From assembly GCA_001779095.1 (NCBI GenBank), contig MFJD01000001.1, positions 202,456 to 234,819 of the forward strand: a stretch of DNA of 32,364 nt, in the 5' to 3' direction. Position numbers and translations under genes: made by a program. Positions 29,257 to 31,853 of this stretch are shown here, piece by piece. Numbering within the stretch: the stretch's first letter is position 1; every line of letters begins with the position of its first letter. Source of the DNA: Candidatus Gottesmanbacteria bacterium RBG_16_52_11. GTDB taxonomy: Bacteria > Patescibacteriota > Microgenomatia > UBA10105 > UBA927. The notes beneath the pieces are model-generated. The model saw only the letters and a list, made by a program, of their open reading frames with translations, did not search any database and was not told the DNA's origin.

Positions 29257-30444
29257 ATGGCTGACCAGCAAAAATTCCAGAGAACGAAACCGCATCTTAA
29301 TATCGGAACTATCGGACACGTTGACCATGGTAAAACAACTCTAACTTCAGCGATTACGCATGTCCTTGCAAAATCGGGCATGGCCAAAGCACTTAAATAT
29401 GAAGAAATCGATAACGCCCCGGAAGAAAAAGCCCGCGGAGTTACGATTAATATCCACCATTCCGAATACGAGACGGCAAAACGTCACTATGCGCATATAG
29501 ATGCTCCGGGACACGCCGATTACATCAAAAACATGATAACCGGCGCGGCTCAGATGGACGGCGCAATTCTGGTAGTCTCGGCACCGGACGGTCCGATGCC
29601 TCAGACCCGGGAACACATACTTCTGGCCCGTCAGGTAAACGTGCCGGCTATCGTTGTGTATATGAATAAAACCGACATGGTACAGGACAAGGAACTTCTT
29701 GACCTGGTTGAAATGGAAGTACGCGAACTGTTAACCAAATATAAGTTCCCCGGGGACAAACTCCCGGTCATCCGCGGCAGTGCCCTGAAGGCGCTGGAAG
29801 GTGATCCGGAGGCAGAAAAAAGTATCCAGGAACTCATGAATACGGTTGATTCCTATATACCGGATCCGGTACGTGACCTGGATAAACCGTTCCTGATGGC
29901 GATTGAAGACGTTTTTTCGATTAAAGGCCGGGGTACGGTAGTTACCGGACGTGTGGACCGCGGCAAAGTGAAGGTGAATGAGACCGTCGAAATAGTCGGA
30001 ATCAGGCCGACACAGTCCACGGTCGTGACCGGTGTAGAGATGTTCCGGAAAATGCTCGATGAAGGCATGGCAGGTGACAACATCGGACTACTTCTGCGCG
30101 GTATCGAAAAAAATCAGGTTGAAAGAGGCCAGGTAGTTGCTGCTCCCGGAACCGTTAAACCGCACACTGAGTTTGAGGCCGAAGCGTATATCCTGACGAA
30201 AGAGGAAGGCGGACGCCATACGCCTTTCTTTACCGGTTACCGGCCGCAGTTTTATATCAGAACTACGGATGTTACCGGTGAGGTTGCATTGCCCAAGGGT
30301 GTGGAAATGGTCATGCCGGGTGACAGCACCAACATGACTGTTAAACTGATAGCTCCGGTTGCACTTGAAGAGGGAGTCCGTTTTGCCATCCGAGAAGGAG
30401 GCCATACGGTAGGAGCCGGCGTAGTGACTAAGGTTATTTCATAA
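29257..30444 (+). CDS. tuf: Elongation factor Tu
   Basis: Delivers aminoacyl-tRNA to the ribosome as a GTPase, 395 residues, full length. GTP-binding motifs are GHVDHGKT (residues 20-27), DAPGHADY (82-89) and NKTD (137-140), where most bacteria have NKCD or NKVD. The switch I motif reads RGVTIN. Domains 2 and 3 are complete to a normal C-terminal [11 protein letters not shown]. Upstream are a promoter, a 5' hairpin with a T-tract and a consensus Shine-Dalgarno sequence. rpsJ follows 36 nt downstream, giving the fused str/S10 order. Confidence 0.99.
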
Positions 30445-30480: not shown

Positions 30481-30789
30481 ATGCCGAAGGGAAGAATCCG
30501 TGTACGTTTAAAAGCGTACGACAGCCGTATCATAGACGATTGCTGTCAGAAGATATTGGACGTCGCCGTGCGAACGGGAGCCAAGGTTGTGGGACCTGTA
30601 CCGCTACCGACTGACCGGGAACATTATAACGTGGCCAGAAGTACGTTTATTGACCGCAACAGCCGCGAAGATTTCATGATCAAAACACATAAGCGGCTGA
30701 TTGATATTGTCGAACCGACGGATAAAACCATCGATCAGCTGATGCATCTGGACCTGCCGGCCGGAGTTGACGTCGAATTAAAATTATAA
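30481..30789 (+). CDS. rpsJ: 30S ribosomal protein S10 (uS10)
   Basis: A 102-residue head protein of the 30S subunit, also the NusE antitermination partner. IRVRLKAYDSRIID, GPVPLPTDREHYNVARSTFIDRNSREDF and KTHKRLIDIVEPTDKTIDQLMHLDLPAGVDVELKL are diagnostic. An upstream in-frame ATG at 30460 would fall within the tuf-rpsJ stem-loop; MPKGRIRV at 30481 is the family start. It is separated from rplC by an unusually long 440-nt gap. Confidence 0.98.
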   Translation: MPKGRIRVRLKAYDSRIIDDCCQKILDVAVRTGAKVVGPVPLPTDREHYNVARSTFIDRNSREDFMIKTHKRLIDIVEPTDKTIDQLMHLDLPAGVDVELKL

Positions 30790-30810
30790 TACCTGAACTG
30801 ATATTGGTTC

Positions 30811-30876
30811 TCGTCAAACCTGAGATACTTTGGTATACTTAAGTACTTGTAATGATCCGGAATCTACAGATACGAT
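30811..30876 (+). promoter_or_regulatory. Two candidate promoters after rpsJ
   Basis: P1: TCGTCA (30811-30816), 17 nt, TATACT (30834-30839). P2: TTGTAA (30847-30852), 18 nt, TACGAT (30871-30876). Both would feed a short RNA that ends at the terminator at 30937-30963. Confidence 0.45.
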
Positions 30877-30963
30877 ACTGACCGGTCATACCATACGTCT
30901 CGGATGAGCTAAAAATTTCCGGCAACGGAAAGATAAACGGCCTCACCCGGGGTCGTTTTTTTT
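30846..30963 (+). ncRNA. Candidate short structured leader or small RNA upstream of rplC
   Basis: The stretch after P1/P2 contains a 6-bp hairpin closed by a GCAA (GNRA) tetraloop (TTTCCG 30916-30921, CGGAAA 30926-30931), then a strong intrinsic terminator. The layout is that of a riboswitch, a ribosomal-protein autoregulatory leader or an independent small RNA of 80-120 nt. It matches no class I recognise. Confidence 0.4.
30937..30963 (+). terminator. Intrinsic terminator in the rpsJ-rplC gap
   Basis: ACGGCCTC (30937-30944), a 4-nt loop ACCC and GGGGTCGT (30949-30956) with two G-T pairs, running into eight T. It is one of the strongest terminator-like signals in the window, placed between rpsJ and rplC, which are normally co-transcribed. 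Confidence 0.85.
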
Positions 30964-31013
30964 GATGGTTAGTTGGCGAGCGAATTCGGATTCGCGAGCT
31001 TACTAACCATCAA
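30962..31013. repeat. Long interrupted palindrome (52 nt) in the rpsJ-rplC gap
   Basis: Outer arms TTGATGGTTAGT (30962-30973) and ACTAACCATCAA (31002-31013) match perfectly over 12 bp. Inside are GC/GC pairs, a tandem G-A mismatch, and a 6-bp GCGAAT/ATTCGC stem with a TCGG loop. It could be a REP-like intergenic unit or an RNA hairpin. Confidence 0.8.
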
Positions 31014-31028
31014 TCCGCCACGAGCGCT

Positions 31029-31067
31029 CCTCACGCCGTGTACGAACAGTACTGAAAAGGCGTGAGG
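31029..31067. repeat. Second hairpin (9-bp perfect arms) in the rpsJ-rplC gap
   Basis: CCTCACGCC (31029-31037) and GGCGTGAGG (31059-31067) are perfectly complementary. The 21-nt loop contains a nested GTAC/GTAC pair. No T-tract follows. The remaining gap sequence (31068-31216) shows a short T6 run near 31098-31103 but no gene. Confidence 0.7.
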
Positions 31068-31216
31068 CAAGAGGGGGAGGATGACGGAGCGATATAAATG
31101 CCAGCCGTTTTTTGACCGTTGAACTGATATTACATCAATACGGATTGTCAAAGAGAGGCAGCTACTGATGGGGAAATTTTCAGTCGGTGAGCATTTTCCG
31201 GCCGTGCAGAAGGTAA

Positions 31217-31222
31217 TATAAC
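31217..31222 (+). promoter_or_regulatory. rplC: -10 box of rplC (leaderless)
   Basis: TATAAC, 5/6 to consensus, exactly 7 nt before the rplC ATG; the -35 is weak. It suggests that rplC restarts transcription after the rpsJ-rplC terminator. Confidence 0.45.
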
Positions 31223-31229
31223 ATAAAAT

Positions 31230-31853
31230 ATGCTGCGTGCATTGATAGGCACTAAACTAGGACAGACGCAGACGTTTACGCCCGAAGGAAAGCGGATACC
31301 TGTGACAATGATACAGGCGGGTCCGTGTTTTATTACGGCTATCGATGACCGTCCGGGCCAGCACAGCGTCCAACTCGGCTTCGGAACGGTCAGGAATATC
31401 AGCAAACCGCGCATCGGTCACCTGAAGAAAACGGGGCTCACACAAAAGCTCCGTTTTTTACGGGAATTTCCGGTCGAAGAAATTTCTGCGGATATGAAAC
31501 CGGGTGACCAGGTTCAGGTTGATGCTGTTTTCCACCCCGGTGACCGCGTCAGGGTAACCGGAACCAGCATCGGTAAGGGATTTGCCGGCGTGGTGAAACG
31601 CCACGGATTTAAGGGAGGACCCCGGACCCACGGTCAGTCAGACCGTGAGCGCGCTCCGGGATCAATCGGCCAGACTACTACGCCCGGCCGGGTATATAAA
31701 GGCAAACGGATGGCAGGCAGGATGGGTGGAGAAAGGGTAACTGTGCGCGGATTACGGATTGTCGGGATTAATCCCCAATCCGGTCTGATCACCGTGTCAG
31801 GAGTCGTACCGGGACCGAAACAGGGTTTTGTCGTCATTACGAAAGAAGCTTGA
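31230..31853 (+). CDS. rplC: 50S ribosomal protein L3 (uL3)
   Basis: A 207-residue early-assembly protein near the peptidyl transferase centre. LIGTKLGQTQTFTPEGKRIPVTMIQAGPC at the N-terminus and the long central loop GFAGVVKRHGFKGGPRTHGQSDRERAPGSIGQTTTPGRVYKGKRMAGRMGGERVTVRGL are unmistakable. Gene order (rpsJ, rplC, rplD) is that of the S10 operon, but the 440-nt gap with a terminator ahead of it is abnormal. rplD follows after 4 nt. Confidence 0.98.
   Translation: MLRALIGTKLGQTQTFTPEGKRIPVTMIQAGPCFITAIDDRPGQHSVQLGFGTVRNISKPRIGHLKKTGLTQKLRFLREFPVEEISADMKPGDQVQVDAVFHPGDRVRVTGTSIGKGFAGVVKRHGFKGGPRTHGQSDRERAPGSIGQTTTPGRVYKGKRMAGRMGGERVTVRGLRIVGINPQSGLITVSGVVPGPKQGFVVITKEA

Follow-up and report, generated by a model that had tools for sequence, protein, structure and literature searches.

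In E. coli, the S10 operon is controlled by L4-responsive attenuation, in which a leader located before rpsJ acts via a terminator, and L4 is the classical regulator of this operon. The locus described here is alike in that a leader with a terminator lies on the S10 operon and L4 is encoded just downstream, but this leader (leader A) is located past rpsJ, its regulator is a candidate, and the window (the whole 32,364-nt stretch of DNA analyzed, from Candidatus Gottesmanbacteria bacterium RBG_16_52_11) has no Rfam match to any leader. According to the accessible part of PMC7247131, conditional terminators are already known from ribosomal protein (r-protein) leaders, which are usually confined to a single lineage and in many cases do not mimic rRNA. 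The leaders predicted in that part of the source resemble leader A as lineage-restricted, structured 5' leaders with covariation, for which terminator formation is a known mechanism, whereas leader A differs by a promoter embedded in the putative regulatory stem and by having no Rfam 15 match. As far as the accessible main text goes, PMC7247131 mentions neither uL3 nor CPR nor Patescibacteria. We therefore regard leader A as a previously uncatalogued form of a known kind of element. Gene regulation in Patescibacteria is little known; our literature search found no paper joining "candidate phyla radiation" with "structured noncoding RNA", and "Patescibacteria" and "riboswitch" co-occur in a review. 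A conserved leader on the main r-protein operon would offer a handle on how ribosome production is tuned in reduced cells.

The gap between rpsJ and rplC

The open reading frames of the window follow the order rpoB, rpoC, rpsL, rpsG, fusA, tuf, rpsJ, rplC, and rplD, with names assigned mostly by reading the translations; this also applies below wherever a gene name is given without a family search. Judged by rpsJ, the closest named relatives are Candidatus Gottesmanbacteria, along with a few genomes labelled Woesebacteria or Patescibacteria. The genomes compared are mostly metagenome-assembled, and all evidence is sequence-based. The features of the locus are collected in Table 1.

The 440-nt gap pointed out in the initial annotation was confirmed, since rpsJ ends at 30789 and rplC starts at 31230. 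The two genes had been described as nearly always contiguous; in this class, a gap is instead the rule. It measures 73-440 nt in 23/23 family members that have rpsJ, and where rplC adjoins rpsJ in representatives from outside the family, it is no shorter than 69 nt. In six outside-family representatives, rplC was absent within 1.5 kb of rpsJ. The window gap is the longest among the 23 family genomes with rpsJ, and its unusual length is explained by element B, which is present at the rplC leader in only 4/26 genomes. The gap is a composite of leader A (30811-30963) and an unrelated, terminator-attached repeat, element B (30957-31082), and not the single structure that had been assumed. Conservation across relatives, on which the initial annotation had made its reading depend, was found for leader A and not for the rest of the gap. 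Between element B and rplC, about 150 nt (31083-31229) are matched in no relative's gap. The leaderless-type -10 proposed before rplC lies in this stretch without counterparts, and the promoter scan was negative there. Overall, the gap, the terminator, and the hairpins proved to be real, while the contiguity claim, a second promoter, and the leaderless -10 were not confirmed.

Table 1. Features of the rpsJ-rplC region, in window positions
Feature	Position	Strand	Evidence
tuf (EF-Tu), closes str-type cluster	29257..30444	+	ORF; name by reading
rpsJ (uS10)	30481..30789	+	ORF; 83-93% identity to family rpsJ
Embedded promoter: -35 TCGTCA, 17 nt, extended -10 TGgTATACT	30811..30839	+	Conservation, scan
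P1 5' strand GAGAU-ac-UUUGGU; overlaps promoter spacer	30822..30834	+	Alignment A2
P1 3' strand ACCAUA-c-GUCUC; family consensus ACCAAA-a-GUCUC	30890..30901	+	Alignment
Candidate antiterminator 5' strand CUCGGAUGAG; CUC common with P1 3' strand	30899..30908	+	Complementarity, folding
GCAA-capped hairpin in variable insert	30916..30931	+	Alignment, scan
Intrinsic terminator aaacGGCCUC-ACCC-GGGGUCguuu with T8	30935..30963	+	Conservation, terminator scan
Candidate antiterminator 3' strand CUCACCCGGG, within terminator	30942..30951	+	Complementarity
Element B hairpin 1: U.U mismatch and tandem purine.A internal loops; begins in terminator T-run	30957..31016	+	Covariance model, alignment
Element B hairpin 2: three-tier stem AUCC...GGAU	31012..31082	+	Folding, copies compared
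Rest of gap, without conserved feature; holds proposed leaderless -10	31083..31229	+	Without counterpart in relatives' gaps
rplC (uL3), first gene past leader; rplD (uL4) next	31230..31853	+	ORF; NCBIfam L3_bact

Conservation, pairing and promoter of leader A

Leader A combines a promoter of the extended -10 type with the long-range stem P1, an intrinsic terminator, and an alternative strand that is a candidate antiterminator. Family-wide, the gap contains GAGATACTYTGGTATACT, a variable middle, ACCAAAAGTCTCGGATGAG, and the terminator CGACCTCAACCGAGGTCG-T(n), which in most family members lies within about 15 nt of the rplC start. Using covariance model R2, we found leader A as a single copy per genome in 26/280 class genomes, scored with strict filters by which weak matches can be lost. 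These were 23/24 family genomes, whose 23 copies built the model and match by construction, and 3/3 sister-family genomes, whose copies are independent; none of the 254 other class genomes matched. The only family genome without leader A (G016) also lacks an rpsJ match. All 26 copies sit between rpsJ and rplC, directly upstream of the r-protein operon, and the sister-family copies likewise precede genes that are L3-like by reading. As judged from these matches, leader A is conserved across one order-level group of Microgenomatia.

The initial annotation had stated that the gap matches no known class, and the covariance-model search agreed, as no Rfam family matched it. Against Rfam 15, leader A gave nothing at gathering, and the best permissive match (E 0.47) was to an unrelated lncRNA; T-box and cobalamin riboswitch matches were also absent from the rplC leader in Rfam. 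The suggested riboswitch-like element, in the sense of a metabolite riboswitch, was unsupported. In other Microgenomatia families (L074 in G053, L077 in G068, L081 in G029, and L084 in G070), a different candidate leader was observed in the rpsJ-rplC gaps, with a hairpin around GTTAGT...CCTAAACTC-ACTAAC followed by GTAG..GGA(T/A)GTAGGGA, also near rplC; this element is likely another r-protein leader.

In the family alignment, 97.3% of the cells of P1 and the terminator pair, and this fell to 36-53% when the partners were slid against each other. De novo covariation analysis across relatives bore out a structured element: the two stems show 9 double-sided changes compared to 1.2 in shuffles, and 0/500 shuffles reached as high, a control that does not remove relatedness among the sequences. 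RNAalifold recovered both stems unaided. Pair 13-84, for example, is GC, AU, or UA within the family and CG in the sister-family genome G026. P1 itself is largely invariant, with its covariation confined to a few pairs; it contains a 2x1 internal loop, and the window copy departs from the consensus (ACCATAC compared to ACCAAAA elsewhere), which results in one U.U mismatch. The strong terminator with T8 was confirmed at 30935-30963, and three terminator-like sites were found in the region compared to 0.3 expected by chance. The GNRA-capped hairpin is also present, in the form of a GCAA-capped hairpin at 30916-30931, though its variable insert is missing from most relatives.

Relatives carry the embedded promoter as TTGANT-17-TATACT/TATAAT. 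TATACT or TATAAT is located at the inner end of the P1 5' strand in 23/26 copies, nearly all with the extended TG, and the hexamer exactly 17 nt upstream of the -10 starts with TTG in 20 of the 23 promoter-bearing copies. The mean best match of the -35 box to TTGACA was 3.65, compared to 2.62 (sd 0.18) in shuffles. Since the window-only scan was at chance level (one promoter found, 1.1 expected), the case for the promoter rests on conservation in relatives. Of the two candidate promoters proposed initially, the scan returned one (TCGTCA-17-TATACT), which this conservation backs, and the second was not found. Because the P1 5' strand overlaps the promoter spacer, transcripts starting at the embedded promoter would not contain this strand. 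P1 is kept without an embedded promoter in two copies (L054 and L055), and it is preceded by a promoter (TTGAGA-17-TATACT, by eye) in G026; P1 therefore cannot serve solely against read-through.

The overlap of the P1 5' arm with the promoter spacer would also be expected if P1 were a DNA operator dyad over the promoter and not an RNA stem. This explanation appears very improbable: the arms are unequal (GAGATACTTTGG and GAGACTTTTGG), the distance between them varies, and G.U and U.G pairs are kept. With an invariant U.G pair and frequent G.U pairs, P1 fits RNA better than a DNA dyad, and the operator was disfavoured on these three grounds.

Competing folds and possible control of the rplC operon

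The sequence CUCGGAUGAG is complementary to CUCAACCGAG within the terminator. In the leader A alignment, 86% of the antiterminator cells pair, and the pairing is re-made after two-sided changes in L064 (CUUGG/CCAAG) and L068 (CUCAAGG/CCUUGAG). P1 and the candidate antiterminator share bases. By partition function, which treats folding as thermodynamic and not co-transcriptional, the window copy had a terminator probability of 0.92 and an antiterminator probability of 0.07 when the P1 5' strand was included; for RNA starting at the promoter, the values were 0.26 and 0.70. Read-through RNA from tuf-rpsJ carries the P1 5' strand and is thus predicted to favour termination, whereas for RNA from the embedded promoter, which lacks this strand, a shift toward the antiterminator is predicted. 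Scrambling the P1 5' strand raised the antiterminator in 16/23 members and lowered it in 1/23 (p = 7e-5), whereas scrambling a neighbouring stretch as a control changed it little (mean +0.015). The effect of scrambling P1 is small or absent in many members and smaller at 20 C, and in more than half of the family the terminator is still the favoured fold even for promoter-started RNA. In tests of individual sequences, the antiterminator often does not outperform shuffles (median p 0.09), because the CUC...GAG at its ends mirrors the terminator; in G002 and G009, an altered terminator goes with a weak antiterminator. These results indicate that the complementary strand, which would form a mutually exclusive antiterminator, is conserved and partly covarying, and that the energetics favour switching in some members, not all. 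Among other families of the class, with unrelated leader sequences, a terminator near rplC and an upstream complement tend to recur (combined p = 3e-4, obtained with a crude terminator finder).

An intrinsic terminator in a 5' leader behind a promoter, the defining arrangement of a transcription attenuator, was found at the level of sequence, with the promoter in 23/26 copies. We consider it somewhat more probable than the contrary that the gap holds an attenuator that controls transcription of the rplC (S10) operon in cis, together with a later insert. In such an attenuator, transcription would halt before rplC when P1 is formed, and would go on into rplC when P1 is unable to form or is held open. 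Leader A probably sets the output of the large r-protein operon, and what drives it may be the choice of promoter, a protein of the operon (L4 or L3, for instance), or the two together.

A plain operon boundary, at which a fixed terminator ends the tuf-rpsJ transcripts and a promoter starts the rplC operon without regulated switching, would agree with the conservation of both promoter and terminator and with the terminator being the favoured fold in most full-length transcripts. However, the promoter is located upstream of the terminator, so that its transcripts must cross the terminator to reach rplC. In addition, the P1 strands are nearly invariant although the terminator does not need P1, and the antiterminator is conserved and partly covarying. 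We regard such a boundary as unlikely.

A more specific form of the attenuator explanation, and not exclusive of it, is an autogenous leader, comparable to L4 control in E. coli: P1 would be bound by L4, L3, or some other product of the operon, and termination would be forced by this binding. The position before rplC and rplD fits this possibility, as do the near-invariant P1 with its 2x1 internal loop and invariant U.G pair, as expected for a protein site, and the presence of P1 even where the embedded promoter is lost. On the other side, neither the P1 strands nor the conserved 3' strand resembles 23S rRNA above chance, as tested on the 23S locus of G011, and since mimicry was not found, no ligand is implied. 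Many known r-protein leaders are likewise without clear rRNA mimicry according to the accessible part of PMC7247131, and mimicry is not required of such a leader. We give the autogenous leader a substantial chance, somewhat below even, and feedback on leader A by an operon protein, e.g., L4 or L3 (the nearest gene product), appears plausible. An L4- or L3-responsive leader was the best of the three ideas in the initial annotation: rplC and rplD are indeed preceded by a conserved leader that covaries, resembles an attenuator, and has a promoter of its own, with L4 and L3 as candidate ligands. As to the 23S genes, the match in G011 (L203, G011:C1:391605-395777) spans about 4.2 kb, and the gene probably has insertions; in the window's own genome, the match at G000:C4:110919-111999 is broken into pieces.

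Another of the three ideas was a discrete small RNA ending near 30963. A terminated leader would be such an RNA, and nothing indicates one acting in trans. A short peptide encoded in the gap, or a gap given over mainly to a small RNA that acts in trans, is hardly credible: a few genomes of genus g8 have an ORF ending at the conserved GGATGAG, but no reading frame is common to the family, for which a conserved leader peptide was rejected, and the element is always directly upstream of rplC.

Element B and its sites

The two further hairpins reported past the terminator are present at 30957-31082 (fold z = -5.2), but belong to the dispersed element B, related copies of which were found by DNA search elsewhere in the same genome and in relatives. 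A covariance model of hairpin 1 (R1) detected 1-9 copies per genome in 20/24 family genomes and a few copies in families f21, f23, and f24. Hairpin 1 shows 97% pairing, with 58 double-sided changes compared to 16.2 in shuffles and a covariation score of 0.389 compared to 0.147. For hairpin 2, the end could be placed in 35/56 copies, most of which have a multi-tier stem closed by AUCC/GGAU. Element B bears what we take to be a passing resemblance to twister-sister loop sequences; a ribozyme was dropped as a candidate, since the base that should follow the cleavage position is missing.

At rplC, element B was found directly past the T-run in G000, G006, G003, and G024 (a diverged copy). Being dispersed and present at rplC in these four genomes only, it was rejected as a part of the rplC leader. 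The hairpin 1 likeness among rplC copies was 0.60-0.73, compared to a mean of 0.72 across different loci (permutation over all loci, p 0.25). The rplC copies are thus no more alike than copies from different loci, so that vertical inheritance at rplC is unsupported and separate gains fit.

A total of 43/56 copies begin in a T-run, a figure biased by the T-run belonging to model R1, and 35 of these 43 have a hairpin of at least -6 kcal/mol, outside the model, directly upstream. The terminators before element B include those of T-boxes (L118, L123, and L202; below gathering score, E 4e-6 or better) and of an AdoCbl-II riboswitch (L120, just below gathering). The rplC leader would share terminator-based control with these attenuators, past which element B sits in relatives, but matches neither class. 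Element B also precedes 16S rRNA past a terminator-like hairpin at six loci (L121, L131, L140, L143, L180, and L182) and follows 5S at two (L145 and L133). Family searches identified rplC, rpsB, greA, thrS, trpS, and argH as genes past element B, and alaS weakly; the searches used N-terminal fragments, and most matches are therefore below the curated cut-off. A further gene past element B, trpE, was named by reading only.

Element B may be mobile and seek out terminators, or it may be an RNA module that acts behind attenuators. The sporadic, apparently separate gain favours the former, while the latter is favoured by the strong covariation and by the types of gene that follow. A functional element B would represent a new class of RNA associated with terminators, and a mobile one a compact repeat that targets them. 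Group IIC introns insert next to intrinsic terminators, and element B, of about 125 nt, is likened to them by targeting alone. It is also similar to REP sequences as a dispersed hairpin repeat in genomes with RAYT genes, but here the RAYT genes are flanked by their own, different palindromes, and element B was rejected as the REP of the resident RAYT transposases. R1 gave no convincing match in 12 RAYT loci (best E 0.8). Many Y1/RAYT transposase genes, up to 13 per genome, were seen among the relatives searched (L206-L217), and the loci examined carry REP-type palindromes of their own.

Taken jointly, a promoter inside an arm of the regulatory stem would let the RNA start decide the fold, and element B would be an undescribed two-hairpin class behind attenuator and rRNA-leader terminators across Gottesmanbacteria-type genomes, a combination that we put forward tentatively and hold to be rather doubtful. 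Read-through RNA would then terminate and locally started RNA continue, with element B as a terminator-seeking mobile element or a transcription-stage RNA module. Such a layout, if true, would be an unusual separation of read-through from local transcription.

Several single copies were also observed. At L118, L123, L181, L201, and L202, element B lies directly past T-box-like or attenuator terminators, before tRNA-Tyr, trpS, trpE-like, and alaS-like genes; a T-box upstream of a tRNA gene is itself odd. In the window's own genome, a copy near G000:C9 138285 (L174) is directly upstream of rpsB (S2). At L185, element B is located upstream of a 23S gene, in a stretch that includes the boxA-like TGCTCTTTAACA. 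Some copies in genus g8, examined by eye, lie beside tRNA genes and show short repeats of tRNA sequence. At L135, L189, and L190 (in G022, G020, and G021), the neighbours are tRNA-Leu and tRNA-Cys genes, and repeated tRNA 5' sequence flanks the copies, with a tandem arrangement in one case; this looks like insertion into the D-loop region of a tRNA 5' portion that had been duplicated.
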